Shown one piece after another: positions 7,089 to 24,740 of a stretch of 31,435 nt of DNA. Every line of letters begins with the position of its first letter. Positions within the stretch are counted from its first letter, which is position 1. The stretch is from positions 1 to 31,435 of the IMG/VR virus record IMGVR_UViG_3300010883_000245; one strand, given 5' to 3'. The position numbers and the translations under genes were made by a program. The stretch is from a virus. Below the pieces are notes generated by a model. The model did no database searches and had not been told where the DNA came from. It saw only the letters and a list, made by a program, of their open reading frames with translations.

Positions 7089-7910
7089 ATGAGCGTCAAG
7101 CTGATCAAACAGGCCCTGAAGTCCCCGGCGTCTGGAGCGGATCGTCTGGCCCTTGTGGTGCTGTCTCACCTCGCCAACGACGACGGCGATGTGGCCGTCA
7201 CATATAAAGAGTTGGCGTTGTCCCTGAACGTCACCCGCCGAGCCTCCATTAATACGGTGATCCGACTAATTGAGGATGATCACATCACATTGGTCGAGTT
7301 ATCGCCGGGAAGGACACCCAACATTTACAAGATCAACAGTGAAGTGGACTTCACCGTTAACAGTGAAGCCGACTTCACCGTTGAGACATCGAGGGCGGGT
7401 TCCAACAGTGAAGTGGACTTCACCGTTGAGCAATCCAACAGTGAAGCCGACTTCACCGTTAAAACGCCCAACAGTGAAGTGGGCTTCACCGTTGAACCGC
7501 CAATATCCCCAGTGAGGGGGGAGAGTAGAAGTAGTATAGCTATAGATAGTAATAGAACCCCCCCTATATCCCCCCCACAGAAATCGGACAAAAAGAAAAA
7601 CCGAAAACGCAAATCGCAATTGCCGGCCTCTTGGAAACCAAACGACAAAGCTAATCAAATCGCAACAGATGAAGGATATGAAAATGACGAAAAAGAAGTC
7701 ATCTTGGCCCAATTCAAAGATCACGCCAAAGCCACAGGCCGATGCCAAATCGATTGGGACCGAGCTTTCTACACTTGGATCAGATCAGGGATCACAAAAT
7801 CAGACATCTACCAACGTCGTCGCGCTGACCCTAAACGTCAGTCGAGACAAGGAAGCGAAAACCTGTCTGCCGTCGCGACTAGCCTCATGTCTCGAACCAC
7901 AGTTCAATAG
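7089..7910 (+). CDS. Lambda-O-like replication initiator with winged helix and DnaT-like C-terminus
   Basis: 273 residues from ATG at 7089; the longer frame from 7020 is not used because it overlaps the previous gene without a ribosome site. Residues about 1-82 form a winged-helix domain (SGADRLALVVLSHLAND, VTYKELALSLNVTRR, INTVIRLIEDDHI, then a wing). Residues 83-135 contain five copies of N-S-E-V/A-D/G-F-T-V encoded by DNA palindromes. Residues about 140-175 are a low-complexity Ser/Pro/Lys linker. Residues about 175-250 (LPASWKP, then FKDHAKATG, IDWDRAFYTWIR) resemble the DnaT/O-type C-terminal domain that contacts the helicase loader. The protein would bind the repeats inside its own gene and open the origin, as lambda O does. 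Translation may be coupled to the overlapping gene at 7684. Confidence 0.7.
   Translation: MSVKLIKQALKSPASGADRLALVVLSHLANDDGDVAVTYKELALSLNVTRRASINTVIRLIEDDHITLVELSPGRTPNIYKINSEVDFTVNSEADFTVETSRAGSNSEVDFTVEQSNSEADFTVKTPNSEVGFTVEPPISPVRGESRSSIAIDSNRTPPISPPQKSDKKKNRKRKSQLPASWKPNDKANQIATDEGYENDEKEVILAQFKDHAKATGRCQIDWDRAFYTWIRSGITKSDIYQRRRADPKRQSRQGSENLSAVATSLMSRTTVQ
7335..7493. repeat. Five palindromic iterons inside the initiator gene
   Basis: Five 24-bp copies at 7335-7358, 7359-7382, 7404-7427, 7437-7460 and 7470-7493. Each has arms AACAGTGAAG and CTTCACCGTT, complementary at nine of ten positions, around a 4-base centre (TGGA, CCGA, TGGA, CCGA, TGGG). The arms are identical in all copies, including silent codon positions; only the centres vary. 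Gaps between copies are 0, 21, 9 and 9 bases, all multiples of three, so the frame stays open. These are the expected binding sites of the winged-helix domain encoded just upstream. Confidence 0.85.
7516..7564. other. Candidate DNA-unwinding element of the replication origin
   Basis: Directly right of the iterons, bases 7522-7557 are AT-rich (10 G/C of 36) and contain the perfect palindrome TATAGCTATA (7535-7544). The block is bracketed by G6 (7516-7521) and C7 (7558-7564), which could pair with each other. In lambda ori an AT-rich melting region likewise follows the iterons inside gene O. Function here is inferred from that layout. Confidence 0.5.
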
Positions 7911-8334
7911 TGAGTGGGACACCATCCGATACGACCTCACCGCGACCATCGATGTCGAGGTTCTCAAGCACGGTCGATCCCAGATCCTGGACCTCTGTGA
8001 GGCCCCAGAACGCTCCACGGTCATCGAAGGATTGATAAAACTCCGCGCTCTCACCGCACATAGAAATGAAGAGAACGCCAACCTGGAATTGATCAGCGAA
8101 GCGTACATCGACAAGCTCATGGCATACCCTGCCGATGCTGTCGTTCAAGCACTCAATGAAGCACCCGACCGAGACAAGTGGTTCCCGGCATGGCACGACC
8201 TCAAGGATCGCCTTGATTACCTCACGACCGACCGGCGGCTCATGGTCAACTGTATCGACCGGGAGATCGCAAAGCTGGACAAGACATCAGTCCAAGGCCT
8301 CATCAAAGGAGCGATAACCAAATGCCCAAGGTGA
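7684..8334 (+). CDS. Replication-module protein with 227-base overlap with the initiator gene
   Basis: 216 residues if started at ATG 7684, which has AAGGA seven bases upstream; ATGs at 7669 and 7678 have worse spacing. No ATG or GTG was seen in this frame near the end of the initiator gene, so the long overlap seems real. Residues 1-75, encoded over the initiator's C-terminus, are Ser/Lys/Thr-rich and probably unstructured. The remainder is helical, with ERSTVIEGLIKLRALT, a YIDKLMAYPADAVVQAL segment and DKWFPAWHDLKDRL. The YP-x-D-x-V..KWFPAW pattern recurs in phage replication-region proteins. Its position after an O-like gene makes a helicase-loader (P-like) role plausible, but no ATPase motif is present. 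Confidence 0.55.
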   Translation: MTKKKSSWPNSKITPKPQADAKSIGTELSTLGSDQGSQNQTSTNVVALTLNVSRDKEAKTCLPSRLASCLEPQFNSEWDTIRYDLTATIDVEVLKHGRSQILDLCEAPERSTVIEGLIKLRALTAHRNEENANLELISEAYIDKLMAYPADAVVQALNEAPDRDKWFPAWHDLKDRLDYLTTDRRLMVNCIDREIAKLDKTSVQGLIKGAITKCPR

Positions 8335-9113
8335 AAGACGATCCTCAATTCGGCGATGCCGCCGGTAAACCGCCAAGCTGGTTCGCTAGAGTTCCAAGCA
8401 AAGCAATCATCGATGACCAGCTAACCCATGCCCAAGTCCGTATCCTCGCCGTCATCTGCACTTATGGCAATAATCAAGGCTTCGCATGGCCCAACCTGAA
8501 GACAATTCAAAAAAAGGCAAACGTCAACCCAAAGACACTCGACCGAGCCATGAGAGCATTGAAAAAGCAGGGCTACATCGAGGTCATCTCAAGGCATCGG
8601 AGCCATCCCAAATGGAAACGGATCATGGGATGTGTCTACCGCATCAAGTTCGATGATGGCCTCGAAACAGACAAGCTGATCGACCAAATGACCAATGAGG
8701 ACGCTAAGAGTGCGTCAGGTGGCCCCCAGATCGACGAGGCGGCAGTGATAGGTAGTCAGGGTCCAGATGGCACAACGTCTCTCAGTGAGCATCCTAGAGC
8801 CTCTGATGCCCTATCCGATGACAGCCAGATTGACATACCAGATGAGGGAGACAGTAACCAGAACGAGAGACTAGATGTTGATCTACTAGTTCATGCTACC
8901 AATCTCGCACAACAGTATTCCAAAGAAGCCGAGCAATCGCACGGTCAACTCAGGCTGGTGAATCCGAGGGCAGTCGAGGCGGCGAAGATGCTGATCGGCA
9001 GGGGCTGGAGTGACAACGAGGTCGTGCTTGAGTACCGCAAAGAACTGAAGAGGCGCAGGGAAGCAGGGCGTGACGCTCCACATCACCTCGGCGACTGCCT
9101 CGGTGTCCGTTGA
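8322..9113 (+). CDS. Helix-turn-helix replication/regulatory protein
   Basis: 263 residues, ATG overlapping the previous gene by 13 bases. Residues about 20-100 are a winged helix of the phage replication-initiator type: FARVPSKAIIDDQLTHAQVR, GFAWPNLKTIQKKANVNPKT, RAMRALKKQGYIEVI. The middle (about 125-185) is a Ser/Asp/Gly-rich linker. The end (VEAAKMLIGRGWSDNEVVLEY) is helical and unassigned. It differs in sequence from the O-like protein and lacks internal iterons. It may be a second DNA-binding component of the replication complex or a regulator. Confidence 0.6.
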   Translation: MPKVKDDPQFGDAAGKPPSWFARVPSKAIIDDQLTHAQVRILAVICTYGNNQGFAWPNLKTIQKKANVNPKTLDRAMRALKKQGYIEVISRHRSHPKWKRIMGCVYRIKFDDGLETDKLIDQMTNEDAKSASGGPQIDEAAVIGSQGPDGTTSLSEHPRASDALSDDSQIDIPDEGDSNQNERLDVDLLVHATNLAQQYSKEAEQSHGQLRLVNPRAVEAAKMLIGRGWSDNEVVLEYRKELKRRREAGRDAPHHLGDCLGVR

Positions 9114-11632: not shown

Positions 11633-12095
11633 TCCTGTCCAGAGGTTCGGCGGCGTCCGGGCATTGAACAATCGCCTCAAGGGTCGGTCGAAGGTCATCG
11701 CCGATAACAAGGAAGCCGTCGCCGCTGAACTCGTCAGCATGGCGATGGTCAACTTGACCGACATTGTCGAATGGGATGAGAATGGCAATGTCACGGTGAA
11801 ACCATCGTCGGAGATTTCAGATGAGGCGATTCGGGCGATTAAGAAAATCAAGATCACGACTCGACACTTCAAGGGAGAAGGAAACGAAACGACGCTTGAT
11901 GTTGAACTCTACGACAAGGTCAGGGTTCTCCAGATTCTGGCGAAGGCTTCTGGACTTCTTGAGCCGCCGCCGCCAGAAACAAACACACCCTCGGTAGTCG
12001 GGATCACGATGAAGGGGCCAGACATTATTGATGTCGATGTCATGGAGACATCAAAAAAAAGTAGTCAAGAAACAGAGGATCGTGAACATGAGTGA
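11622..12095 (+). CDS. Terminase small subunit
   Basis: 157 residues. The order VAAELVSMAMVNLTDIVEW, NVTVKPSSEISDEAIRAIKKIKIT, LDVELYDKVRVLQILAKASGLLE is typical of podovirus-type small terminases of the Terminase_2-like group, and the gene directly precedes TerL. The protein would recognise phage DNA, oligomerise and deliver it to the motor. The N-terminus is basic; the last about 30 residues are polar and probably disordered. Eight-base overlap with TerL. Confidence 0.75.
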   Translation: MAHDPVQRFGGVRALNNRLKGRSKVIADNKEAVAAELVSMAMVNLTDIVEWDENGNVTVKPSSEISDEAIRAIKKIKITTRHFKGEGNETTLDVELYDKVRVLQILAKASGLLEPPPPETNTPSVVGITMKGPDIIDVDVMETSKKSSQETEDREHE

Positions 12096-13614
12096 AGACC
12101 AACTAGCCGCCCTCAATCTCGACTTCTCGAAGGCGAAGACCGTCTGGGATTTTTTGCAGTCCGATGCTTTTGTGAGGGGCCTCGTCGGCCCTGTCGGATC
12201 AGGGAAGTCATATGCATCTGCCGCCGAGGTGATGTTACGCGCCGTAAAGCAGAAGCCGTCGCCGAAGGACGGCATCAGATATACCCGCTTCGCCATCGTC
12301 AGGAACAGCTATCCAATGCTTCGGACGACGACGCTGAAAACGTGGGCCGAGTTGTTTCCCGAGAATGTCTTCGGTCGGATGCACTGGTCGCCGCCGATCA
12401 CTCATCACATCAAGTTGCCGACAAGGGGCGATGCACACGGCATCGACTGCGAGGTTATCTTCCTCGCCCTCGACCAGCCGAAGGATGTGCGGAAACTGTT
12501 GAGCCTGGAATTAACCGGCGCATGGATCAATGAGGCGAGGGAACTGCCCAAGGCGATCATCGATGGACTGTCGCATCGCGTGGGCCGGTATCCGGTGAAG
12601 TCAGACGGTGGACCGACATGGCGCGGTATCTGGGCCGACACCAATCCGATGGATGATGATCATTGGTGGTTCAAGCTGGCCGAAAGGGGCGAAGCTCCCG
12701 GCGGCAAGTTCCCGTGGAAATTCTTCAAGCAACCATCTGGTGTCCTAGAAACGCCTGAGTCCGATCTACCTGACTCCCCCGAATCAAATGGCTTTGTTAT
12801 GTCGGCCGGCAAGTGGTGGATGGTAAATCCGGGGGCCGAGAATCTCAACAATCTGCCCGATGGATACTACGAGCAGCTGGTCGGCGGGAAGAATCTGGAT
12901 TGGATCAGGTGCTATGCCAAGGGCGAATATACCTACGTTCAGGAAGGCAAAAGCATCACGCCAGAATACGACGACGACCTGATGTCTGTAGACAATCTTC
13001 AGTTCGATCCCGCCCTGCCCCTGCACATCGGCCTCGACTTTGGTTTGACTCCCGCCGCCGTCTTCGGCCAGAGAACGGCGCACGGCCAGTGGCGGGTTCT
13101 CCATGAACTGGTGACCTTCGACATGGGTCTGGAGCGATTCGGAAATCTTCTCAAGCCAGAGATCGAAGCTCTCTTCCCGAATGCCAACGTTATGGTTTGG
13201 GGCGATCCCGCCGGTGTCCAGCGCGACCAGATTTATGAGGTGACGGCCTTCGATCACCTGAAGACCCTCGGCCTCATCGCGAGGCCAACACATACCAACG
13301 ATTGGAAAACCCGACGCGAGGCGATGGCCGCGCCGATGATCCGGTTCATCGACAAGAAGCCGGGACTCCTCGTTGATAAAAAATGTCTTCGGCTCCGCAA
13401 GTCCCTCGCCGGTGGATATCATTTTTCTCGGGTGGCGGTCGGGGCCGGTCAGGAAAGATTCCGCGATATTCCGAATAAAAACGAGCATTCACACTGTGGC
13501 GATGCATATGGATATCTAATGTTAGGGGGCGGCGAACATCGCGCCATGACCAAGCGGCCCATGCCGATAGGACAGGCGAACATCGCGGCGATGGACTTTG
13601 ATGTCTTTGCTTGA
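12088..13614 (+). CDS. Terminase large subunit (packaging ATPase and nuclease)
   Basis: 508 residues from ATG at 12088, chosen over the ATG at 12028 because AGAGGA stands eight bases upstream and it gives an 8-base overlap. ATPase half: Walker A GPVGSGKS (34-41), a Walker B-type strand LTGAWINEAR (143-151, Asn-Glu instead of Asp-Glu) and a coupling-like WADTNP (about 182-187). RNase H-like nuclease half: HIGLDFGLTP (Asp317), MVWGDPAG (Asp373) and HCGDAYGYL (Asp472). It packages concatemeric DNA through the portal and makes the terminal cuts. The length is normal for the family. Confidence 0.9.
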   Translation: MSEDQLAALNLDFSKAKTVWDFLQSDAFVRGLVGPVGSGKSYASAAEVMLRAVKQKPSPKDGIRYTRFAIVRNSYPMLRTTTLKTWAELFPENVFGRMHWSPPITHHIKLPTRGDAHGIDCEVIFLALDQPKDVRKLLSLELTGAWINEARELPKAIIDGLSHRVGRYPVKSDGGPTWRGIWADTNPMDDDHWWFKLAERGEAPGGKFPWKFFKQPSGVLETPESDLPDSPESNGFVMSAGKWWMVNPGAENLNNLPDGYYEQLVGGKNLDWIRCYAKGEYTYVQEGKSITPEYDDDLMSVDNLQFDPALPLHIGLDFGLTPAAVFGQRTAHGQWRVLHELVTFDMGLERFGNLLKPEIEALFPNANVMVWGDPAGVQRDQIYEVTAFDHLKTLGLIARPTHTNDWKTRREAMAAPMIRFIDKKPGLLVDKKCLRLRKSLAGGYHFSRVAVGAGQERFRDIPNKNEHSHCGDAYGYLMLGGGEHRAMTKRPMPIGQANIAAMDFDVFA

Positions 13615-14125
13615 GGACATCGAGGCCCTGAATAAAGCCGTCCGGTTGTCCGGGGATCGAAAGCTGGTTCCATTCAGCCCGACGCACATCCAGATGATGG
13701 AACTCGGACCCTTCGAGCAAGGGTATTGGAATGCGATCCCGCACTGGCTGGAAATGCTCGAAGGGATGGCCGCGCTGGGCTACGCCTTCACTGGCACAAA
13801 GGCCGGTCGGCCCTATTGTTCCTTCGGCGTTATGAAGATGTGGCCGGGTGTCGCGGAAATGTGGCTCATCCCAGATGCCAATTTGCCACAAGTCGCCATG
13901 TCTTTTCACCGAGCGGCTCTACGCTTTGCCGACATATGTATGTCCGACCTCCACCTTGTACGCCTTCAGGTCACCGTACATACAGCTAATGTCCCCGCTG
14001 ACAACTGGATTCAAAAAATGCTATTTCAGGAAGAGGGTGTTCTTCGAGCCTTCGGTCCTGATGGCTCCGATCACCGAATGTATTCACGGTTGAAGGAACA
14101 GAACGATGAGGCTGACACCTTCTAG
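13601..14125 (+). CDS. GNAT-like phage protein (T7 gp13-type)
   Basis: 174 residues; ATG at 13601, 14 bases inside TerL, preferred to the in-frame TTG at 13598. The pattern YAFTGTKAGRPYCSFGVMKMWPGVAEMWLI, FHRAALRF, RLQVTVHTANVPADNWIQ and LRAFGPDGSDHRMYSR matches an acetyltransferase-like fold found in small podovirus virion or morphogenesis proteins. Whether it binds acetyl-CoA is unclear: the usual R/Q-x-x-G-x-G/A loop is not evident. It lies between terminase and portal genes, suggesting a head-assembly or ejection function. Confidence 0.55.
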   Translation: MSLLEDIEALNKAVRLSGDRKLVPFSPTHIQMMELGPFEQGYWNAIPHWLEMLEGMAALGYAFTGTKAGRPYCSFGVMKMWPGVAEMWLIPDANLPQVAMSFHRAALRFADICMSDLHLVRLQVTVHTANVPADNWIQKMLFQEEGVLRAFGPDGSDHRMYSRLKEQNDEADTF

Positions 14126-14134
14126 GGCAATTTG

Positions 14135-14407
14135 ATGGCCGGTCTTTTTTCCGCGCCCCCCGCCCCTCAAGCCCCCCCCGGACCAGACCCTGCATTGCTC
14201 AAGCGACAGCAAGATCAGGAAGATCGACTCGCTCGACAGGAACGAGCGCAACAACAGGAACTCTCGGCCCGTCGCAGAGCGAGAGGTTCCGGTGGAACTC
14301 GACAACTTATTTTTCAGGCCCGGATTGATCCCGCTCTCGGTGTCCCGACCGACACTTCCCTCGGGCCAGCCTCTACCCCCCGCAACCCTGACAGAAGGAC
14401 ATCATAG
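14135..14407 (+). CDS. Small Pro/Gln/Arg-rich head-module protein, first of a pair
   Basis: 90 residues from ATG at 14135 (an in-frame TTG at 14132 is less likely). It starts MAGLFSAPPAP, followed by a Pro-rich segment, a charged helix (LLKRQQDQEDRLARQERAQQQ) and an R-R-R-A-R-G-S-G-G-T-R stretch. Its N-terminus matches that of the next gene (M-x-G-L-F-S-A-P-x-A-P). Small proteins of this design are common just before podovirus portal genes; no function is established to my knowledge. Confidence 0.6.
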   Translation: MAGLFSAPPAPQAPPGPDPALLKRQQDQEDRLARQERAQQQELSARRRARGSGGTRQLIFQARIDPALGVPTDTSLGPASTPRNPDRRTS

Positions 14408-14409
14408 AT

Positions 14410-14625
14410 ATGGGTGGATTATTTTCAGCCCCGTCAGCCCCGGCCCCCGCTCCAGTGGCGGTTGCTCCCGCGCCAGAGCCTCGTCCCGAGAATCGCGTTG
14501 AACAGGAAAACGCCGCTGCCTCTCGCGCCCGTCGCCTGTCGGCACGACCGCTGGTTTCAGGTTCACCTCTCGGCATTCAGGATGGTGGCCTGAATACGAC
14601 ACTCGGTCCCCGTGGGGCTGGCTGA
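14410..14625 (+). CDS. Small Pro/Ala-rich head-module protein, second of a pair
   Basis: 71 residues, starting two bases after the previous stop. MGGLFSAPSAP, a Pro/Ala/Val stretch, then NRVEQENAAASRARRLSARP and a Gly-rich end. The order of parts copies the preceding protein but is shorter, suggesting duplication and divergence. Its stop overlaps the ATG of a 12-codon frame (TGATG) leading to the portal gene. Confidence 0.6.
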   Translation: MGGLFSAPSAPAPAPVAVAPAPEPRPENRVEQENAAASRARRLSARPLVSGSPLGIQDGGLNTTLGPRGAG

Positions 14626-14663
14626 TGGCTTTTCAAAGGAATCCGAAGAAGCGAGTTAAGTAA
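14625..14663 (+). CDS. 12-residue basic minicistron coupling to the portal gene
   Basis: ATG at 14625 inside the previous stop, TAA at 14661-14663 sharing its last A with the portal ATG. The peptide would be MAFQRNPKKRVK. The exact overlaps at both ends suggest a ribosome re-initiation bridge across an otherwise 37-base gap where the portal gene has only a weak ribosome site. Too short to judge further. Confidence 0.3.
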   Translation: MAFQRNPKKRVK

Positions 14664-16246
14664 TGCCGGGACTGACAGCCGAGCAACTTCGCAAACGATC
14701 CAACGCCGCCTGGAATCGGAAAGAACCGTGGAGGGCGATATACGACGAGGCCTATGAGTTCGGCTTGCCCCAGCGCAATCTCTACGATGGCACTTGGGAA
14801 AGCGGCACAACCGGACAGAACAAAGGCCTTCGCGTGTTCGACTCGACTGCCGTCCATTCCACCCAGCGGTTCGCCAACCGATTGCAGTCCGGTCTGTTCC
14901 CGCCCGACAAAAGGTGGATGGATTTACAACCCGGAACCGACATCCCGGCAGAGCGTAACTCTGATGTGCGAGAAGCCCTTCAGCTATTCACCAAGCGATT
15001 TTTTGCCCTGATTCGCCAGACTAATTTTGACCTCGCGATGGGAGAATTTCTCCTGGACCTCTGCGTTGGGACTGCCGCGCTGATGGTGCAGAAAGGAAAA
15101 GGCGACCAGAAAATTAATTATACTGCCGTCCCCTCTTTCCTAATTGCTTTCGAGGAAGGCCCGGATGGGAACGCCCAGAATGTGTATCGGCGAATGAAAA
15201 TGCCGGTCGAAAATATCCTTCGCACTTGGCCCGATGCCGAATTGGATGCTGTCTTGTTGCAACTTCTCGAAGATGACCCGACCAATAATGTCCAGCTTCG
15301 CGAGGCGACGATCTTCAATGTCGCAGATAACCAGTGGGGTTATTACATCTGGCATCAGGCCAACGAGGACGAGACGGCGATAATTCTTGAACGGAAGCTG
15401 AAAAGATCGGTCTGGGTTGTGTCTCGTTTTTTGAAAGTCTCGGGCGAAATTATGGGCCGTGGGCCTTTGCTATCGGCCCTCGCCGACATCAAAACGGTCA
15501 ACAAGGCCATTGAACTTCTCCTCAAGAATGCGTCGATCAACATCGCAGGTGTCTACACTGCCATCGATGACGGCGTCCTGAACCCCTCGACGATCCGAAT
15601 AGTCCCCGGAGCGGTTATCCCCGTCGCCAGAAATGGCGGTCCACAAGGCCCATCCCTCCAGCCTTTGCCCCGCTCCGGGGACTTGCAACTTTCGCAACTG
15701 GTGATCAACGATCTCCGTTTGCAGATCAAGAAGACGCTCCTCGATGACTCCATGCCGCCAGATAATATGTCGGCCAGATCGGCTACCGAAATCATCGAAA
15801 GAATGCGCGACCTTGCCGTCAACCTCGGCTCCAGTTTTGGTCGGATGATCCATGAAGCAATGGTCCCGATTGTAAAACTGACGCTTGAAGAAATGGGCGA
15901 TCAGGGCCTCATCGATCTGCCTCTCAAAATCGACGGCCTCGAAGTTCAGATCGTGCCGGTTTCGCCCCTCGCCCAAGCCCAGAATCTCGACGAGGTTCAA
16001 AACGTCCTTCAGTGGTTGAGCGTGGCCTCACAACTTGGTCCGGTCGGCCTGGCGACCGCCAATATGGAAGGCATTTCCGATTGGGTTGCCGACCAGCTGG
16101 GTGTCCCGATTGGCCTTCGCACGACACCAGAAGAACGCACCGAGACTGCCGAGATCGGCTCACAGTTTTTGCAAGCACAAGCTGGTCAGCCAGCGACTCC
16201 GGTTGATGCGGGTCAGCCGCCGCCGGGGTCCATACTTGGTGGCTAA
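14663..16246 (+). CDS. Portal protein (head-to-tail connecting protein)
   Basis: 527 residues, the usual length of the podovirus head-to-tail connector family. Recognisable stretches: LRKRSNAAWNRKEPWRAIYDEAYEF at the start, RVFDSTAVHSTQRFANRLQSGLFPP, FLLDLCVGTAALMVQKG, GRGPLLSALADIKTVNKA and LLDDSMPPDNMSARSATEI. Twelve copies would form the dodecameric DNA gate at one vertex, docking terminase during packaging and the tail afterwards. The Pro/Gln/Gly-rich tail is probably flexible. It belongs to the head gene string and is followed by a 48-base gap without features. Confidence 0.9.
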   Translation: MPGLTAEQLRKRSNAAWNRKEPWRAIYDEAYEFGLPQRNLYDGTWESGTTGQNKGLRVFDSTAVHSTQRFANRLQSGLFPPDKRWMDLQPGTDIPAERNSDVREALQLFTKRFFALIRQTNFDLAMGEFLLDLCVGTAALMVQKGKGDQKINYTAVPSFLIAFEEGPDGNAQNVYRRMKMPVENILRTWPDAELDAVLLQLLEDDPTNNVQLREATIFNVADNQWGYYIWHQANEDETAIILERKLKRSVWVVSRFLKVSGEIMGRGPLLSALADIKTVNKAIELLLKNASINIAGVYTAIDDGVLNPSTIRIVPGAVIPVARNGGPQGPSLQPLPRSGDLQLSQLVINDLRLQIKKTLLDDSMPPDNMSARSATEIIERMRDLAVNLGSSFGRMIHEAMVPIVKLTLEEMGDQGLIDLPLKIDGLEVQIVPVSPLAQAQNLDEVQNVLQWLSVASQLGPVGLATANMEGISDWVADQLGVPIGLRTTPEERTETAEIGSQFLQAQAGQPATPVDAGQPPPGSILGG

Positions 16247-16294
16247 TACATTTACTCCGCATTCCTTGGACTTCGCTGACTGCTAGGAAAGACA

Positions 16295-16588
16295 ATGGAA
16301 AAAGACAACATAGTATCAATCGCGACCCCCGGATGGGAAGGCGTCGAAGCCGTCCCGCCGACGCAACCCGAGTATGCGGCAACGGAACAGGCCAAGATCG
16401 ACAAGGCCATCGCCCGGATGTTTGGGAGCAAGGAAGGCGAGAAGGTGATGACCTATCTCGTTGATGCCTTTTTGCACCAGCCTTGCTGGGCGCCGGGATT
16501 CACAACCGACTATGGATTTTTTCGCGAGGGGCAGAATACCCTGATCCGCGAACTGCAAGCCCGAGTTAAACGAGCGAAGGAGAGTTGA
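16295..16588 (+). CDS. Bbp19-like small phage protein
   Basis: 97 residues, AGGAAAG six bases upstream of ATG. The core (KEGEKVMTYLVDAFLHQPCWAPGFTTDYGFFREGQNTLIREL) fits the short domain known from podoviral Bbp19-like proteins, usually found between portal and scaffold genes: a helix, an aromatic loop, then an F-x-E-G-Q-N/R helix. Function unknown; probably structural or assembly-related. Confidence 0.6.
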   Translation: MEKDNIVSIATPGWEGVEAVPPTQPEYAATEQAKIDKAIARMFGSKEGEKVMTYLVDAFLHQPCWAPGFTTDYGFFREGQNTLIRELQARVKRAKES

Positions 16589-16589
16589 G

Positions 16590-16709
16590 ATGGTGAAAAA
16601 AAAGACAACAAAGAAACCCGCGCCGAAGGCCAAACCCGCCCCGGCCAAGAAATCAAAACCACAGAAAAAGAAAGCCGATAAGCCGATGGGCTTGGGGCTG
16701 TTCTTCTAG
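16590..16709 (+). CDS. 39-residue Lys/Pro/Ala-rich basic protein
   Basis: ATG at 16590 with AAGGAG seven bases upstream, TAG at 16707-16709, fitting exactly between its neighbours. About half the residues are Lys (MVKKKTTKKPAPKAKP start), and it ends MGLGLFF. The composition resembles histone H1-like tails, so nucleic-acid binding or condensation is likely. The hydrophobic GLGLFF end may dock it to another protein; a similar G-L-F start is seen in the pair at 14135-14625. Confidence 0.55.
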   Translation: MVKKKTTKKPAPKAKPAPAKKSKPQKKKADKPMGLGLFF

Positions 16710-16717
16710 GAGAGAAT

Positions 16718-17542
16718 ATGGCTGAAAAACTAGAACCCGCTGCGCCGACCGGACTCATTGACGGTGTCTCATCTGAGACTGAAGAGAAGGTCGAAAACGC
16801 ATCGGAAGAAAACACGACGGTTGATCATCATGCCAAGGATCCAGGAGAATCTTCTGACCTGAAGACCGATTCCGAGATCGGTGAGCGTCCCGAGTTCATC
16901 CCAGAGAAGTTCTGGAAAGATGGAAAAACCGATACCGAAAGTCTAGCCAAAGGCTATGCGGAACTCGAAGGCAAGATGCGCGGCGGGAAACACAAAGCAC
17001 CTGAAGACGGCAAGTATGACGGTAAGTTCCTCGACGACAAAATTCCAGGCGACGATCCGATGTTGATGGAGTTCAACAAGATGGCCTTGGAGAAAGGAAT
17101 CTCACAGGGAGACTATGAAGACCTGATCGGTTTGGTCTTGCAGAACGGGGCCAACGTAGAACAACAGACGACCTTCAATAAGGATGCCGAGATGAAAATT
17201 CTCGGACCCAACGCCGAGAAGATAATCGATGAGCAAGTCGATTGGGCGAGGAGTCTGGTCAAGGCAAAATATTGGGGCGAAGACGACTTCGAGGAGTTCA
17301 AGGTTTTTGCCGGGACTGCCGGGGGCGTGAAGGCCCTCATGCAGATGCGTCGATATTACGGAGACACGACGACGATCCCGACCGATATCAATCCAACCGA
17401 GGAAGCCCTGCCGTCAAAAGACGAATGTTACCAGATGGTCAACGATCCGAAATACCAAAGCGATCCAGCATATCGGGCCAAGGTCGAGAAGACTTTTGCC
17501 AAGGTATTTGGTACTGAACCCGATAATCGGGTCGCGCATTAA
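16718..17542 (+). CDS. Capsid scaffolding protein
   Basis: 274 residues with AGGAGA upstream. The composition is strongly acidic with a disordered N-terminus (EKVENASEENTT, DPGESSDLKTDSEIGE), then FIPEKFWKDGKTDTESLAKGYAELEGKM, which is the classic podovirus scaffold start. It is followed by long helices with a GTAGGVKALMQMRRYYG segment. Located immediately before the major capsid gene. It would direct procapsid assembly and leave before packaging. Confidence 0.8.
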   Translation: MAEKLEPAAPTGLIDGVSSETEEKVENASEENTTVDHHAKDPGESSDLKTDSEIGERPEFIPEKFWKDGKTDTESLAKGYAELEGKMRGGKHKAPEDGKYDGKFLDDKIPGDDPMLMEFNKMALEKGISQGDYEDLIGLVLQNGANVEQQTTFNKDAEMKILGPNAEKIIDEQVDWARSLVKAKYWGEDDFEEFKVFAGTAGGVKALMQMRRYYGDTTTIPTDINPTEEALPSKDECYQMVNDPKYQSDPAYRAKVEKTFAKVFGTEPDNRVAH

Positions 17543-17550
17543 ATCGCAAG

Positions 17551-17585
17551 ATGTGGGGGCTTCCCCATTGACGGAGTCCCCACAT
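17551..17585 (+). terminator. Hairpin after the scaffold gene
   Basis: An 11-bp stem (17551-17561 with 17575-17585, ATGTGGGG outer arm, one G-T pair) and 13-base loop, nine bases after the scaffold stop. It is followed by TCTGTGTAAG, not a T-run, so it may limit rather than end transcription, or set the different levels of scaffold and capsid by processing. Confidence 0.4.
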
Positions 17586-17606
17586 TCTGTGTAAGAACGT
17601 AATTGA

Positions 17607-17734
17607 CTGATAACCCATCCAAGGACGGGCCGGTCTGGTAGCGGGGAAAACCCGTAGTGGTATGGGGGGCTAACCCCCAAGCGACAGCCAGCCTAGCTGA
17701 TAACTGTAGCGTCTTTTCACAAACTCTTGGATGG
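17607..17734 (+). promoter_or_regulatory. Structured leader of the major capsid gene
   Basis: CCATCCAAG (17615-17623) is perfectly complementary to CTTGGATGG (17726-17734), just before the capsid ribosome site (GGAG at 17733-17736, two bases of it in the helix). The 102 bases between hold two local hairpins: CGGG-GAAAA-CCCG (17642-17654) and TGGGGG-GCTAA-CCCCCA (17663-17679). CTGATAAC occurs twice (17607-17614, 17697-17704). Nothing codes here. The layout suggests an RNA element controlling capsid translation; this is inference from pairing alone. Confidence 0.4.
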
Positions 17735-17744
17735 AGATAGCCCA

Positions 17745-18584
17745 ATGGCTGTTAGTCTTTCAACCAACTTTGTGACATTGTTCGATGCCGAGGTGAAGCA
17801 AGCTTATGCGGCCCAGCAATTGCTGGCCGGGACTTGTCGAACCAGAACCGGCGTTGTGGGATCGACGGTACAGTTCCCGAAAATCGGCAAAGGCGTTGCC
17901 GGGATTCGTATCCCTCAAACTGATGTCACTCCGCTAAATGTTGCCCATACTAATGTGACGGCGACATTGAGCGATTTCGCCGCCCCGGAATACACTGATA
18001 TTTTTGACCAGACGCACGTTAACTATAACGAGCGGTCAGAACTTGTCGAAGTCGTATCCGGTGCGATTGGCCGCCGCGCTGATCAGATTAAGCTCGATGC
18101 GCTTGCAGCATCGTCCACTTCTCTGACTGTTGCTAATAGTATTGGTGGTGCTGCCAGTAACCTAAACGTGGCTAAGATTCGCGAAGCGAAACGTCTGATG
18201 GACGGCAACAACGTCCCATCAGGAGATCGCTTCTTCACCATGTCAGCCGATGGCTTGGCAAACCTTCTCAGTGAAACTGAAATCGCAAGTTCAGATTACA
18301 ACACGGTCAAAAGTTTAGTAAATGGACAGGTCGATACGTTCCTCGGCTTTAAATTTATCATGATGGGCGACCGTGATGAGGGTGGTTTGTCAATCGACGG
18401 CTCCAGCGACCGGACGACTTTTGCGTGGCACAAAGCCGCGCTGGGTTTTGCCGAGTCAATGGCGCAGTCAACCGAGATCAACTACATCGCCGAGAAAACT
18501 TCTTGGCTGGTCACGGGCAAACTGTCAGCTGGTGCAACCGCAATCGATGATGAGGGTATCGTTATCCTCACCACAAGGGAGTAA
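17745..18584 (+). CDS. Major capsid protein
   Basis: 279 residues from ATG at 17745; the frame is open from a TTG at 17727, but GGAG nine bases before the ATG decides. It lies directly after the scaffold gene. Sequence features (FVTLFDAEVKQAYAAQQLL, GSTVQFPKIGKGVA, the N-arm strand region, FAAPEYTDIFDQTHVNYNER, RRADQIKLDAL, GLSIDGSSDRTTFAWHKAALGFA) match the HK97-fold major capsid proteins of many podoviruses. It forms the icosahedral shell. The length is short but normal for this group. Confidence 0.85.
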   Translation: MAVSLSTNFVTLFDAEVKQAYAAQQLLAGTCRTRTGVVGSTVQFPKIGKGVAGIRIPQTDVTPLNVAHTNVTATLSDFAAPEYTDIFDQTHVNYNERSELVEVVSGAIGRRADQIKLDALAASSTSLTVANSIGGAASNLNVAKIREAKRLMDGNNVPSGDRFFTMSADGLANLLSETEIASSDYNTVKSLVNGQVDTFLGFKFIMMGDRDEGGLSIDGSSDRTTFAWHKAALGFAESMAQSTEINYIAEKTSWLVTGKLSAGATAIDDEGIVILTTRE

Positions 18585-18589
18585 TTGAT

Positions 18590-18895
18590 ATGGCTTTATC
18601 GCTTGAAAATCTCTCATTGATTGGTGGCGGCTCGAAGGCGGGTAATGCTCCACAGGTTTGGAGTTATGTGTCCACCGATACTCCCGCTGTTATTGATAGT
18701 GCTGGCTACTTCGACAACGGCACTACGACCAACACCGGACTCCGTGATCTCTTTAAGGTCGGTGATCTTATGTATATTCATGGAACTTCCGGTGGCACGG
18801 CTGTCTTCGGGTTGCACATTGTGACCGAAATCACGGCGGCTGGTATCATCGACGTTACCGATGCCACCGCGCTTGGTGCAACCGACACCGATTAA
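18590..18895 (+). CDS. Capsid-adjacent protein, possibly head decoration
   Basis: 101 residues, five bases after the capsid stop. Starts SLENLSLIGGGSKAGNAPQVWSY, then DSAGYFDNGTT, LFKVGDLMYIHG and beta-rich repeats. Proteins with this G-N-A-P-x-x-W-x-Y and A-G-Y-F pattern sit next to capsid genes in many podoviruses. A decoration or head-stabilising role is likely from position and beta content but not demonstrated. Followed by a strong terminator hairpin. Confidence 0.5.
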   Translation: MALSLENLSLIGGGSKAGNAPQVWSYVSTDTPAVIDSAGYFDNGTTTNTGLRDLFKVGDLMYIHGTSGGTAVFGLHIVTEITAAGIIDVTDATALGATDTD

Positions 18896-18907
18896 CCCAC
18901 TAGGGCT

Positions 18908-18929
18908 TGGGGGGGCTTCGGCCCCCCCA
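18908..18929 (+). terminator. Strong UUCG-tetraloop hairpin after the head genes
   Basis: A perfect 9-bp stem TGGGGGGGC / GCCCCCCCA closed by the extra-stable C(TTCG)G tetraloop, 13 bases after the decoration-like stop. The downstream bases (GCTACTTCTGATT) are only mildly T-rich. Probably a terminator or partial terminator giving high capsid and lower tail expression. Confidence 0.7.
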
Positions 18930-18952
18930 GCTACTTCTGATTGGGGGCCTTA

Positions 18953-19591
18953 ATGGCCGCTGGAGATACTGATGTAAAAATTTGTTCCCATGCATTAATA
19001 ATGCTGGGCGAGGGCGAAATAACGTCGTTTACGGATGGCACGACTCGGGCCGGTATTTGTGAGGCCCTGTATCCACAGATTCGCGATGTGACCCTCGCTA
19101 TGTATCGATGGGCATTCGCGCAAAAGAAAGTCCAGCTTCAGGAGTCAGTCGGCGATCCTGTGAATGAGTTCGACAATTCGTTCCCGATGCCGTCCGACTC
19201 TTTGACGGGTGTTCCCATTGCTGTATTCAATTCCACCGGGACCGGAATTACTTCGATCACCGCTGGCTGGGAAATTCTCGGTTCTGATTTGGTGACCAAT
19301 CAGACGACCATCGTCATCGATTATATGTTCATCCCGCTCGAAGCGGAGATGCCGACCTACTTTATCCAGCTGTTGAAATACTTCATGGCGATGCATCTCG
19401 CCGAGCCTATTACCGATCAGATCACCAAGGCTCAACATTGGGAACGCATCGCCATCGGTAACCCAGCCGAGGGTGGCCGGGGCGGGTTTTTCCGACAGGC
19501 CGCGACCATCGACGGCCAAGGAACGCCGACCGAGTTTATCAATAACTATCCACTAATTGATGCTCGGCTGACCCTTGCGAATACCTTTTAA
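18953..19591 (+). CDS. Tail tube / adaptor protein (T7 gp11-like, tail tubular A)
   Basis: 212 residues from ATG at 18953 (GGGGG just upstream). The N-terminus KICSHALIMLGEGEITSFTDGTTRAGICEALYPQIRD, then MYRWAFAQKKVQL, is the well-known pattern of podovirus tail tubular A / adaptor proteins, followed by IDYMFIPLEAEMP and a C-terminal helical part. It forms the ring linking portal and nozzle. The stop overlaps the next ATG (TAATG). Confidence 0.8.
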   Translation: MAAGDTDVKICSHALIMLGEGEITSFTDGTTRAGICEALYPQIRDVTLAMYRWAFAQKKVQLQESVGDPVNEFDNSFPMPSDSLTGVPIAVFNSTGTGITSITAGWEILGSDLVTNQTTIVIDYMFIPLEAEMPTYFIQLLKYFMAMHLAEPITDQITKAQHWERIAIGNPAEGGRGGFFRQAATIDGQGTPTEFINNYPLIDARLTLANTF

Positions 19592-22320
19592 TGAGCCGAG
19601 TTGTAAAATTACAGACCAACTTTACGGTTGGTGAAATTAATCCTGAACTCCGGGGAAGGATTGACCTCCAACAATATGAGAGTGCGTTGGAACGAGCGAG
19701 GAATGTCATTATCAACCCTCGCGGCACTATCGACCGTCGCCCCGGACTTCCGTTCAAGTTTCTGATCCCGTCAGCCGCGACTCCCGAAAGTGGTATCGCC
19801 CTGATCGGCTTCGCCTTCTCGACGACCCAGACCTATATGCACCTTTTTACCGGAAGCAGACTTTACATTTTCAAGACCGGCGTCCTCGTTGAGGACATCA
19901 ACGGCATCACGGGCCGGGACTACCTCGATGTGGACCCGCAAGTGACTCTGACTATCTCCTCGGCCAGCGGCACGTTTACCCAAGGCGAAACAATCACCGG
20001 CGGCGGCAGTGGATCGACCGCCGAAGTCCTCTCCGATAACGGGACGACGTTGCTGGTCAGGTCGGTGTCGGCTGATTTTACATTGGCCGAGCAGATCACA
20101 GGCGGCTCATCAAGCGTAACGGCAGATGTGGATAGCTTTGTGGATACAGTTGTGGATGGAATAACCTCCTCGGAACTGGGCGACATCTGGTGGACGCAAT
20201 CAGCTGACACCTTGTTGCTGTTTCATGAAGACATGAAGTCCATTCAGATTCAGCGCGGATCGACTGATGCCGATTGGACCGTTCAGGATATTGTGTTTGC
20301 AAACATCCCCCGGAATCTGTTCACCGCGACCGACACCAATCCCGCCCAGACTCTCACGCCATCGGCGACTGACGGCAGGGTTGATCTGACAGCTGGCGCG
20401 GCAGTCTTCCATGACGGTCGTGAAAATACGGCACAAGCTGGCGGGGCCTCGACCATCACGCTGGATGCCGGGGCCTTGGCGACAGACGACATTTACAACG
20501 GATCGTCGGTCATCATTCAATCAGGGACCGGCCTCGGTCAGGAACGGATCATCTCGGATTATGTAGGCGCGACCAAGGTTGCGACGGTGTCTGTGGCGTG
20601 GGCGACGCAACCTGATTCTACATCGGTTTTCACCGTGACCAGCCATGTTGGTCAGAAGATTTATGACGACGGGAGCGGCATCGGCCAGGCCAAGATCCTG
20701 GAAGTTGAAAGCTCGACAGTCGTCAAGGCCGTCACCGAGGCCCCCTTCTTTGATGCGGACGCCATCCCTTCTGGCGATTGGCGGCTAGAACAGGGCTACC
20801 GGGATGCATGGTCAACGACTCGCGGATGGCCCCGGACAGCGACGTTCCATGAAGGCCGTTTGATTGTGGGCGGGTCCAAGTCCCTGCCGACGACAGTCTG
20901 GGGGTCCAAGGTCGGGTTTTTCTTCGACTTCGATCAGGGGACATCCCTCGACGATGAAGGCCTCGAATCGACAATCGACACCGATCAGGTCAATGCCGTG
21001 ACAGCGGTCATCTCCGGTCGAGAGTTCCAGTGCTACACCACAGGTACTGAGTTCACCGTTCCCCAGCTTCAGGGAGAGCCTCTCACGCCGACCTCGTTCC
21101 TATTCAAGCCAGCCACCCGTCGCGGATCGTCCACAGGGATCAGGCCGCAGATCAGTGAAGGCGGGGCGTTCTATGTTCAGCGTGGCGGCAAGGCGATCAG
21201 GGAACTAATTTTCTCCGACCTCGAAGGGTCTTTCACATCCAACGACATCAGCCTTCTATCCTCGCACCTCTTGCAAGCACCAACGAGGATGGTTCTACGC
21301 CGGGGAACCAACGTCGATGAGGGCGATCTCTTGCTTATTCTGAATGGTGGGACCGGGACGCTCCTCGGCTCCATCGCCGCCTTCTCAATTCTCCGATCAC
21401 AGAACGTCATCGCCCCGGCCCTATGGACGACCGAGGGAACCTTTATTGACATCGGCATCGACGAGTCCGACACGCCGGTCGTCTATACGGTCTGTAAGCG
21501 GTTGGTCAACTCGACCGATGTTTATTACCTCGAAGCCTTTGATGACAACTACACCACTGACTCATCCCAGCAAACCCTGCCACCGGCGTATGGCACGTTG
21601 ATTGAGGTGAAGGGGGCCTCTCAGACCGGGACGACTCTGATCATTGATGGCTTGACCGTTCAGCCCCAGACCGGCGACACCTTCACCATCGAAGGTGTTG
21701 CCGAATCTTACACCATCTCCACGGCGACGACGATCTCGGGGACGACCTCGACGCTGGTTCTTGAGGAAACCCTCGACTCTTCGCCAGCCGACAATGCAGA
21801 CATCACGTTCTCCAGCGTCTCCCAACTGGACAACCTGTCGCACCTCGACACCGAGACTGTGAAGATAATCACCGACGATTCGGAACAGGCTGATCAGGCC
21901 GTCGCCTCGAACTCTCTCACCCTATCCCGTCCTGCCTACACTTATGTGGAGGTCGGCCTCGAATACCCGACGTTTGTCGATGATCTAAACAACGACACCG
22001 TCACGACGACACCTTATGGGCGCACCATGCCGGTTGAGACTCGACTGCCGTCCGGGCCGGTGTCGGGATTTAAGAAGAGAGTCATCAAGGTTAATGCGAT
22101 TCTCAATGACACCCAGAACCTTATCATCAATGGAGACATCGTTCCGTTTAGGAAATTTGATGTGGACAGCTTGGACAGCGGTGTCGCCTTCTTCACCGGG
22201 ACAAAAGAAGTTGGGCCGTTCCTCGGATATGACCTCAAGGGTCAGGTGGAATTTAAACAGGACGCTCCCCTGTTTTTCACCTTACTTGCTCTTGATTACA
22301 CAGTGAGTGTAGGACAATGA
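19591..22320 (+). CDS. Tail nozzle protein (T7 gp12-like, tail tubular B)
   Basis: 909 residues. The start (QTNFTVGEINPELRGRIDLQQYESALERARN, then NPRGTIDRRPGLPF) is diagnostic of podovirus nozzle proteins; the remainder is beta-rich. Residues about 118-180 contain two copies of an F-T-x-x-E-x-I-T-G-G module (129-138 and 163-172), an insertion type seen in phage tail proteins, perhaps for surface contact. A second Thr/Ser-rich insertion follows at about 675-735. It forms the tip of the short tail through which DNA leaves. ATGA overlap with the next gene. Confidence 0.8.
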   Translation: MSRVVKLQTNFTVGEINPELRGRIDLQQYESALERARNVIINPRGTIDRRPGLPFKFLIPSAATPESGIALIGFAFSTTQTYMHLFTGSRLYIFKTGVLVEDINGITGRDYLDVDPQVTLTISSASGTFTQGETITGGGSGSTAEVLSDNGTTLLVRSVSADFTLAEQITGGSSSVTADVDSFVDTVVDGITSSELGDIWWTQSADTLLLFHEDMKSIQIQRGSTDADWTVQDIVFANIPRNLFTATDTNPAQTLTPSATDGRVDLTAGAAVFHDGRENTAQAGGASTITLDAGALATDDIYNGSSVIIQSGTGLGQERIISDYVGATKVATVSVAWATQPDSTSVFTVTSHVGQKIYDDGSGIGQAKILEVESSTVVKAVTEAPFFDADAIPSGDWRLEQGYRDAWSTTRGWPRTATFHEGRLIVGGSKSLPTTVWGSKVGFFFDFDQGTSLDDEGLESTIDTDQVNAVTAVISGREFQCYTTGTEFTVPQLQGEPLTPTSFLFKPATRRGSSTGIRPQISEGGAFYVQRGGKAIRELIFSDLEGSFTSNDISLLSSHLLQAPTRMVLRRGTNVDEGDLLLILNGGTGTLLGSIAAFSILRSQNVIAPALWTTEGTFIDIGIDESDTPVVYTVCKRLVNSTDVYYLEAFDDNYTTDSSQQTLPPAYGTLIEVKGASQTGTTLIIDGLTVQPQTGDTFTIEGVAESYTISTATTISGTTSTLVLEETLDSSPADNADITFSSVSQLDNLSHLDTETVKIITDDSEQADQAVASNSLTLSRPAYTYVEVGLEYPTFVDDLNNDTVTTTPYGRTMPVETRLPSGPVSGFKKRVIKVNAILNDTQNLIINGDIVPFRKFDVDSLDSGVAFFTGTKEVGPFLGYDLKGQVEFKQDAPLFFTLLALDYTVSVGQ

Positions 22321-22961
22321 GTTTTGCCGCCGCCGCATTAGCGATGTCATCTGTCAGCGCACTGGGCCAGATCAGACAGGGTCAGGCACAGGCTAATTCC
22401 CTGACGGCCAGAGGGATGGGCCTGAACGTCGAGGCTAAGTTCAAGCGGCTCGAAGGTCGCCGGGAAGCCCTGAAGGACAAGAAGGTCGTCGTCGATAAGC
22501 TGACCGAAGTTGTGCAGAATCTTGCCAGCATCAATGCCGCCGCCGGGGCCGGGAACATCGATCCATTCAGTGGCAACCCGCTGGGCCTGAAGATCAAGGG
22601 TCGGAAGATCGGTGGGACCGATGCGCTGGTCGCGAAAGAGAATGCCGCCATCACGATTCTGTTATTTAACGAACAGGCCAAGCAACTTGAGTTCGCGGCA
22701 CAGCAAGCCTTCGCCGCCGCCGGTGCGGCACGGTCGGCTGGCGTGACCAATGCGCTCATGACCTTCGGTTCATCTCTTGCCATGTTCGGAATGTCAGGTG
22801 GCTTCGGTGCATCGCCGGGGGCCGGGGCGGGTGCAGGGGCTGGCGCGAGTTCGGGACTGCAAGCCGTTCCGCGAGGACTCCCGTCACTAGGTAATACTGC
22901 CGGTGCGCCGTTCCGATTCCAAGGATTTGGCACATCATCGAATGCAATGCAGAGGATTTAG
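22317..22961 (+). CDS. Internal virion (ejection) protein, gp14-like
   Basis: 214 residues, near the size of T7 gp14 (about 196). Ala-rich with a hydrophobic start (FAAAALAMSSVSALGQI), a charged helix (KFKRLEGRREALKDKKVVV), a second hydrophobic Ala/Gly region (about 145-165) and a Gly/Ala low-complexity end (GAGAGAGAGASSG). The position after the nozzle gene and before two larger ejection proteins matches the T7 gp14-15-16 order. It would pass into the cell envelope to form the outer part of the DNA channel. Confidence 0.65.
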   Translation: MSFAAAALAMSSVSALGQIRQGQAQANSLTARGMGLNVEAKFKRLEGRREALKDKKVVVDKLTEVVQNLASINAAAGAGNIDPFSGNPLGLKIKGRKIGGTDALVAKENAAITILLFNEQAKQLEFAAQQAFAAAGAARSAGVTNALMTFGSSLAMFGMSGGFGASPGAGAGAGAGASSGLQAVPRGLPSLGNTAGAPFRFQGFGTSSNAMQRI

Positions 22962-22964
22962 GGA

Positions 22965-24740
22965 ATGGCATTACCTAAAATTAGTAGCGTTCAGACGGTG
23001 GCCCCGAGAGGGTCCATCCCCATCAGCGTGTCCAAGACTTCGCCGGTGAATGAAGTCATCGCGGCATCGGCCGGCAATCTGTCAAAACGTCTGGACGGCT
23101 TCGCGGCATCGGCAAACAAGATGGCCTTCAGTCAGGGAAAGATGACCGGCGAGAGACAGGGTGCGATTGATGCATCCGAGTTACTCAAACAGGCAAGGGA
23201 AACTGGTGAGCCGATCAACCTGTCCGATTTACCCGGTGACTTTTCATCCTTCAGTGTCGTCGAACAAGCCGCCCGGAAGGGCGCATTGAAAGTCATCTCG
23301 TCGAACTTCGCCGTCGAGGGGCGCAAGGCAATTACCGATGCCGCGCTGGCCGCATCAGATGATCCGACAGTCTCGCCACAGGCCTTCGGCAAGACTCTCG
23401 ACAACATCGTGCAGAATCATACCGAGGCCCTAACGGCTCTGTCCCCGACCGAGGGCGCGAAGCTGGGAGCATCGTTGTCTATCGTCGCCAACTCCACTGG
23501 CGTGAGCCAAGCGCGAACATTCGCGACGGCGCAGAAGAACATTCGCAAGACCAACGCCATCGCCAGCGTGTCCACGTTCCAAGATAACATCAAGACCATC
23601 ATCAGCGGTTTTGTTCCAGACCCGGATGGAAAGGTCACCCTGAAGAACATCATCGACAGCGAACTGCATCAGATGGAAAGTCACCTGATCAATGAGGGTG
23701 TCGCCGGTGCGACGGTGAAGCAGAAGATCGACGCGACCAAGAAGGTTTTAAAACAGCATCGCATCGCCGTCATCGCAGACTATGCCCGGACCGGAATGGG
23801 GAACCCCATCGGCGGGATGTTCGACACCATCAGCCGGTTGCAGAAGGGGGAGAAGCTGGACAACCCACAGATGACCTCTCTCGCCAAAAGCCTCGATGCT
23901 GTCGGCAGGGATGAGTTGCTCACCAAGCTACGGTCGGAACACTCGGGCCTGATCTCGACACTTCAGGCTGATGAGGGCTACAAGGAACTGGGCCGCAACC
24001 AGACCCTGTTCAACCAGACCAACGACTTCCATCAGGCCCTCAAGACAGACCGCGCATTAGCACGGGCCATCGTCGAGGATGTGAAGAAGTTCGATTGGAA
24101 GGCCGGTAAGGAACTGGAAGAAATATTCAATGAGGGGGCAACGCCAGACACTCCCAATAACCCAGTTGTCAAACAGCTGTTGGCGAGGATGGGCGATGGC
24201 CGGGAGAACGTCGGCGCCCTGAAAAATGAAATAATGAATGGCAACTTCAGCATCAACGAGAGGGCTGAACTGTTCAAGACCTTGAAGACGTTTCAAGGCA
24301 ACAAGACCAAGGCGGCATTGACCATTGCCCGATCTGAGATTGGCATTGACCCGGACCTGATCAGGACGATGGGCAAGGGTGCGGGACCGGAACAGCGTCG
24401 GCTCTTGTCAATCTATGACAAGTTCAAAGGCAAGCTGGCACGGGAAGCACTGAACCCTGCCTTCGATCCCATCAACTTTGTCGATACCCAGCTGATCGTC
24501 ATCGCAAAGACAGAGACTGAAGCCCTAACTAAAACACTAAGGAAGAGCATCACCAGAAGGCTTGGGTTTCTGCTTCCCGAAGCCGAGAGTTTTGATGTCA
24601 CTACAGTTCCAGGCTTGAGGGTTCTTCAGAAACAGCTAACCCAGCTTCAGAAAGACCCGTCGAAGCGCCGGGGCGCACAAAGAATTTCAGAACAGATATC
24701 AGACCTCATGGATGCGATGAATGATTTGGCAGGTCAGTGA
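22965..24740 (+). CDS. Internal virion protein, gp15-like
   Basis: 591 residues, largely helical and charged (LKQARETG, EVIAASAGNLSKRLDGFAASANKMAFSQGK at the start, DLMDAMNDLAGQ at the end). No enzymatic motif is visible. The start with a short Ser/Val tail then a K-R-L-x-x-F helix is common in podovirus ejection proteins. Based on order and composition it corresponds to T7 gp15, a periplasmic tunnel component; sequence recognition is weak. Confidence 0.55.
   Translation: MALPKISSVQTVAPRGSIPISVSKTSPVNEVIAASAGNLSKRLDGFAASANKMAFSQGKMTGERQGAIDASELLKQARETGEPINLSDLPGDFSSFSVVEQAARKGALKVISSNFAVEGRKAITDAALAASDDPTVSPQAFGKTLDNIVQNHTEALTALSPTEGAKLGASLSIVANSTGVSQARTFATAQKNIRKTNAIASVSTFQDNIKTIISGFVPDPDGKVTLKNIIDSELHQMESHLINEGVAGATVKQKIDATKKVLKQHRIAVIADYARTGMGNPIGGMFDTISRLQKGEKLDNPQMTSLAKSLDAVGRDELLTKLRSEHSGLISTLQADEGYKELGRNQTLFNQTNDFHQALKTDRALARAIVEDVKKFDWKAGKELEEIFNEGATPDTPNNPVVKQLLARMGDGRENVGALKNEIMNGNFSINERAELFKTLKTFQGNKTKAALTIARSEIGIDPDLIRTMGKGAGPEQRRLLSIYDKFKGKLAREALNPAFDPINFVDTQLIVIAKTETEALTKTLRKSITRRLGFLLPEAESFDVTTVPGLRVLQKQLTQLQKDPSKRRGAQRISEQISDLMDAMNDLAGQ

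Follow-up and report, generated by a model that had tools for sequence, protein, structure and literature searches.

A probable lambda-type replication origin, with five dyad iterons, inside a divergent winged-helix initiator gene of an IMG/VR phage

In phage lambda, the O protein binds as dimers to iterons that lie in the middle of its own coding sequence and adjoin an AT-rich tract (PMC7466680, PMC5043065). Iteron plasmids of the P1, F and RK2 type also carry an array of initiator sites adjoining an AT-rich region, and are bound by monomeric initiators (PMC5043065). The window, which is the whole stretch of DNA that was analysed, is the complete 31,435-nt virus record IMGVR_UViG_3300010883_000245 from IMG/VR. 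It resembles the plasmids in this arrangement of array and AT-rich region, whereas its sites are dyads inside the initiator gene. The region is very probably a phage replication origin of the lambda type, located within the initiator gene, with dyads that are most likely bound by the winged helix encoded in the same gene. The features concerned are the following.

7089..7910, + strand: O-like replication initiator gene, P0001, 273 aa (PHROG matches)
7089..7334, + strand: winged-helix DNA-binding domain, P0001 residues 1-82 (AlphaFold2, mean pLDDT 94)
7236..7274, + strand: recognition helix, residues 50-62 (AlphaFold2 prediction and family covariation)
7335..7358, + strand: dyad iteron 1 (exact motif match)
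7359..7382, + strand: dyad iteron 2 (exact motif match)
7404..7427, + strand: dyad iteron 3 (exact motif match)
7437..7460, + strand: dyad iteron 4 (exact motif match)
7470..7493, + strand: dyad iteron 5 (exact motif match)
7494..7509, + strand: putative degenerate AACC[AG]TC-like form, GAACCGCCAATATCCC (family comparison)
7522..7557, + strand: AT-rich block, candidate melting region (36 nt, 72% AT)
7617..7793, + strand: C-terminal DnaT-like domain, P0001 residues 177-235 (weak match, 15.6 bits, below the Pfam cut-off of 25)
7669..8334, + strand: ORF in the lambda P position, P0002, 221 aa (overlaps the end of the P0001 gene by 242 nt)
8322-9113, + strand: second winged-helix initiator-like protein, P0003 (HTH_36, E 1e-8; replication-initiation PHROGs)

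P0001 matches phrog_1408 (E 7e-11, covering the stretch 103-238), the O-like phrog_8540 (E 2e-8) and phrog_1032 (E 7e-7), and is, as far as sequence comparison goes, best placed among the O-like initiators of phrog_8540 and its relatives. The AlphaFold2 model of residues 1-82 contains helices at 3-10, 16-28, 39-46 and 50-62 and strands at 34-37, 67-70 and 78-81, with the codon for Asn55 (7251-7253) falling within the predicted recognition helix. The domain is divergent, none of the aligned family members exceeding 32% identity to it; the Pfam HTH_36 profile matches 37 of 38 of those members, but not the P0001 domain itself. No close P0001 relatives were found in IMG/VR, a PDB sequence search returned nothing meaningful, and an Rfam search gave no match. 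The protein likewise has no match to Phage_rep_O (Pfam PF04492), a profile against which lambda O scores 123 bits (E 6e-36), and BLASTP detects no similarity between P0001 and lambda O (E 22).

P0002 has no match in Pfam, PHROG or NCBIfam, and its 28% identity to a protein of Pseudanabaena phage Pam5 is weak (E 1e-4); it may be the helicase loader. Further along the record, the late genes (12028-30284) have matches in families of terminases, head-tail adaptors, tail proteins and internal virion proteins, and the early genes include a RecE-like exonuclease, a Holliday junction resolvase and two methyltransferase ORFs.

The array consists of five exact AACAGTGAAG-N4-CTTCACCGTT dyads on the (+) strand, starting at 7335, 7359, 7404, 7437 and 7470 and separated by spacers of 0/21/9/9, and none is expected by chance (0 in 100 dinucleotide-preserving shuffles). 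No further copies, and no other dyad family, occur anywhere in the 31,435-nt record. The original prediction of five 24-bp dyads, in the P0001 frame and directly behind the winged-helix domain, is exact in its positions. Its description of the arms as identical holds between the five copies; within a single copy the match is imperfect, with the arm pair complementary at 9 of 10 positions (AACaGTGAAG vs AACgGTGAAG). The core shared with other genes (vide infra) is 18 bp, [AG]GTGAAG-N4-CTTCAC[CT]. The exact 24-mer has a single IMG/VR match (L005), which was rejected as chance, lying in a predicted capsid-like ORF that encodes NSEGGFTV.

Beyond the last dyad, starting 31 nt after it rather than directly adjoining it, lies the 36-base AT-rich block, which, like the bracketing G6 (7516-7521) and C7 (7558-7564), agrees with the original description. 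Only 0.33% of the 36-mers in the window match its AT content, with richer ones near 166 and 911-936. The block is rich in TAG triplets (TAGAAGTAGTATAGCTATAGATAGTAATAG), recalling DnaA-trio-like strings. Across 96 genes of the family, the 40 nt past the last dyad are the only stretch in which AT content increases, from about 0.37 to 0.53. GC skew, which had been proposed as a check on the origin, shows a local sign change near 7-9 kb and no clean inflection.

Relatives of this locus were sought both from the DNA and from the protein. A scan of 2.9 million IMG/VR viral contigs for two copies of GTGAAG-N4-CTTCAC within 30 nt, made without protein information, returned six contigs, and in all six the array comes immediately after the DNA-binding domain, within a gene for a winged-helix initiator; a control palindrome with the same letters reversed was found in one contig. 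The looser pattern GGTGA-N8-TCACC, required twice, occurs in at least 120 stretches, and among the matches listed the domain directly precedes the array in 92 of 115 loci analysed, with the array starting between 6 residues before and 46 residues after the end of the domain in those 92. The expectation that iteron sequence and spacing would be specific to one phage group does not hold, as unrelated phages and prophages also carry GTGAAG-N4-CTTCAC arrays, with spacing that varies from gene to gene. A scan of genome collections for the dyad array mostly recovered mycobacterial chromosomal repeats, along with a few prophage-like initiators. Mycobacterial chromosomes contain many pairs of GTGAAG-N4-CTTCAC spaced about 45 nt, nearly all without an initiator domain (loci L131-L248, mostly from Mycobacterium, Mycolicibacter and their relatives).

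A collection assembled by protein similarity only contains 160 loci, reduced to 106 non-redundant genes. Because half-sites vary, a de novo dyad finder was required; it detected a family of dyads with a shared half-site (score >=28) behind the domain in 35 of the 106 genes; 300 control segments drawn from the contigs that carry these genes gave none. In 37 of the 106, a 6-mer occurs six or more times on either strand, as against 0/388 controls. The finder is conservative: most of the genes that it missed hold repeats visible by eye, as do most of the named phages inspected. Exact GTGA dyads occur in 5/109 of the protein-only set, all with Arg55 and base C. Broad family alignments contain no stretch conserved enough to be used as a query.

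The half-sites found in different genes include GGTGACA, GGTGACG, GGTGAAG, GGTGTCG, GGTGGCG and GGTGCGC, among others. When every residue was compared with every base in 91 genes that have 18-bp dyads, the strongest association linked the position of window residue 55 with half-site base 6 (z=13.5). Arg is paired with C in 51/53 cases, Lys with C in 12/14, Gln with A in 6/7, Thr with T in 2/3 and Glu with G in 1/1, while Tyr, Ser, Leu, Val and Asn are paired with A. Arg or Lys for the G opposite C, and Gln or Asn for A, are the base contacts that would generally be expected. In a set of 63 domains, Arg is present for base C in 39/41 and never for A. When genes of opposite base 6 were paired with their closest partner by similarity outside the helix, 21 pairs were concordant, none opposite and two tied, these pairs being disjoint yet not strictly phylogenetically independent. 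The domain is short and its trees are poorly resolved; the best tree implies 11 changes, with 1 or 2 independent pairs on well-supported branches. G or T at base 6 is rare, appearing in four contigs only in one IMG/VR scan. The window combines Asn55 with base A and fits the residue-55 rule; direct support for Asn at position 55 with A comes from the window and from a single cluster of genes in actinobacterial prophages. This covariation between helix and base supports the encoded protein as the binder of the dyads. The original prediction had named relatives that keep the protein while their palindromes are scrambled as evidence against an origin; in the relatives found, the array is kept, and its letters change together with the recognition helix.

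A second family-wide signal follows the dyads. In 153 family regions, AACC[AG]TC occurs in 159 copies on the coding strand and five on the other, as opposed to 9 on each strand in 283 control segments. The distance from one copy to the next is mostly 10-13 nt (a period of about 11 nt), and all three frames are used. The element is common rather than universal, being present just past the last dyad in 89/153 relatives; among the 49 genes that have it behind a called array, the distance from the last dyad to its start is exactly 2 nt in 32. Examples directly behind the array include L009, L014, L273 and L282, where it is a candidate melting or loading element. There is no exact AACC[AG]TC in the window between 5820 and 10685; a degenerate form, GAACCGCC, is found at 7494. 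No published description of HTH_36-type origins, of AACC[AG]TC or of the recognition code was found in the open-access literature.

Three other explanations of the array must be weighed, of which one does not involve a DNA signal at all. The dyads could be a tandem protein repeat, NSEVDFTV, with the palindromic DNA a by-product of codon choice or of recent duplication. All five window copies do share one reading frame and identical codons, and as a consequence the window alone cannot separate DNA-level selection from duplication. However, the unequal spacers between the copies indicate that whole units were not simply duplicated, and the relatives make such a repeat very improbable. GGTGA can be read without a TGA stop in two frames only, and the family dyads use both of these (141 and 103), with both used within one gene at 67/92 loci among the matches listed; the same dyad then encodes GEAHFT, VKPTSP or RKLHLR in different relatives. 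The iterons in the lambda O gene are similarly spread over three frames (0, 2, 2, 1). Since both frames are in use, often in one gene, the dyads across the wider family are, to judge from these sequences, DNA signals and not protein repeats, and the protein-repeat reading was rejected at the family level. DNA-level selection and recent duplication had both been proposed for the identical silent positions; the former is upheld at the family level, and the latter is not.

If the dyads are DNA signals, they could nevertheless be operators through which P0001 regulates transcription inside its own gene, with the origin elsewhere. Winged-helix proteins are usually regulators, a fold search with the P0001 domain returns generic winged helices, with CodY and MarR-type regulators as the closest solved structures, and binding alone is no proof of initiation. 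Yet the P0001 gene matches replication-initiation families, the record contains no second dyad family, and two to six in-gene sites, succeeded by a step up in AT content and a periodic, strand-specific element, resemble an origin, so that an operator function is unlikely. P0003 is also a potential binder in view of its HTH_36 match and its replication-initiation PHROGs. There are, though, no dyads within its own gene, and in relatives the array sits in the gene of its binder; the P0003 recognition helix, VNPKTLDRAMRAL, has Arg at the residue-55 position by hand alignment, which across the family pairs with GGTGAC and not with GGTGAAG. Binding of the array by P0003 is therefore scarcely probable. 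A lambda-type origin bound by P0001, as originally predicted, is supported by the architecture, by the frame independence of the relatives and by the helix-base covariation.

For such an origin, the N-terminal winged helix would most likely bind each 18-bp core dyad as a dimer, each half-site taking one recognition helix, in which Asn55 would lie opposite the A:T pair at base 6. Once all five dyads are filled, the resulting nucleoprotein complex may strain the downstream AT-rich block and open it, after which the C-terminal DnaT-like domain and the P-position protein would load the host helicase. We infer that dimer binding, melting, helicase loading and initiation all take place at the window site.

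On a broader scale, it is probable that O-like initiators of the HTH_36 kind constitute a very large natural set in which the domain and its target sites are contained in one gene, with a readable recognition code (in window numbering, residue 55 sets base 6, and base 5 is influenced by residue 52). A strand-specific melting or loading element common to the set, AACC[AG]TC about every 11 nt, would follow the sites, usually 2 nt past the last dyad. If this is true, prediction from sequence could extend to the origins of uncultured phages and to the specificity of their initiators, and origin positions could be assigned in phage genomes where the initiator now carries no annotation beyond 'helix-turn-helix protein'. 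One curious repeat would then lead to a general, testable rule, namely that many phage initiator genes hold both a DNA-binding domain and its sites, and initiator-origin specificity, along with part of the winged-helix recognition code, could be learned directly from sequence.

The GTGAAG-N4-CTTCAC dyads of the window also occur behind the winged helix in coriobacterial and actinobacterial prophage-like genes (L222, L172 and L144). These genes have Asn where P0001 has residue 55 (CSRRSAINNV) and 39-43% identity to P0001 over 51 aa, but differ from the window in having two dyads in two frames and a different C-terminus. The HTH_36-type O-like initiators (phrog_8540, phrog_1032, phrog_391), including those of Bifidobacterium phage PMBT6, Arthrobacter phage Decurro, Pseudomonas phage TC7 and Sphingopyxis phage VSN-002, share with the window the succession of a winged helix (predicted for P0001), in-gene repeats or dyads, an AT-rich stretch and a varied C-terminus, whereas half-site letters, copy number and spacing differ. 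With lambda O and ori-lambda, the window shares an N-terminal DNA-binding domain, downstream in-gene iterons and an AT-rich tract next to them; the iterons are 18 bp in lambda, as is the window core, and in both a P-position gene overlaps the end of the initiator gene. The half-site differs from that of lambda, there are five dyads rather than four, and AACC[AG]TC is absent from lambda. P0001 is outside the Phage_rep_O family of lambda, yet probably works like lambda O/ori. The anatomy is of a known kind, of which the proposed origin is a variant by virtue of its initiator family, the half-site rule and the periodic element.
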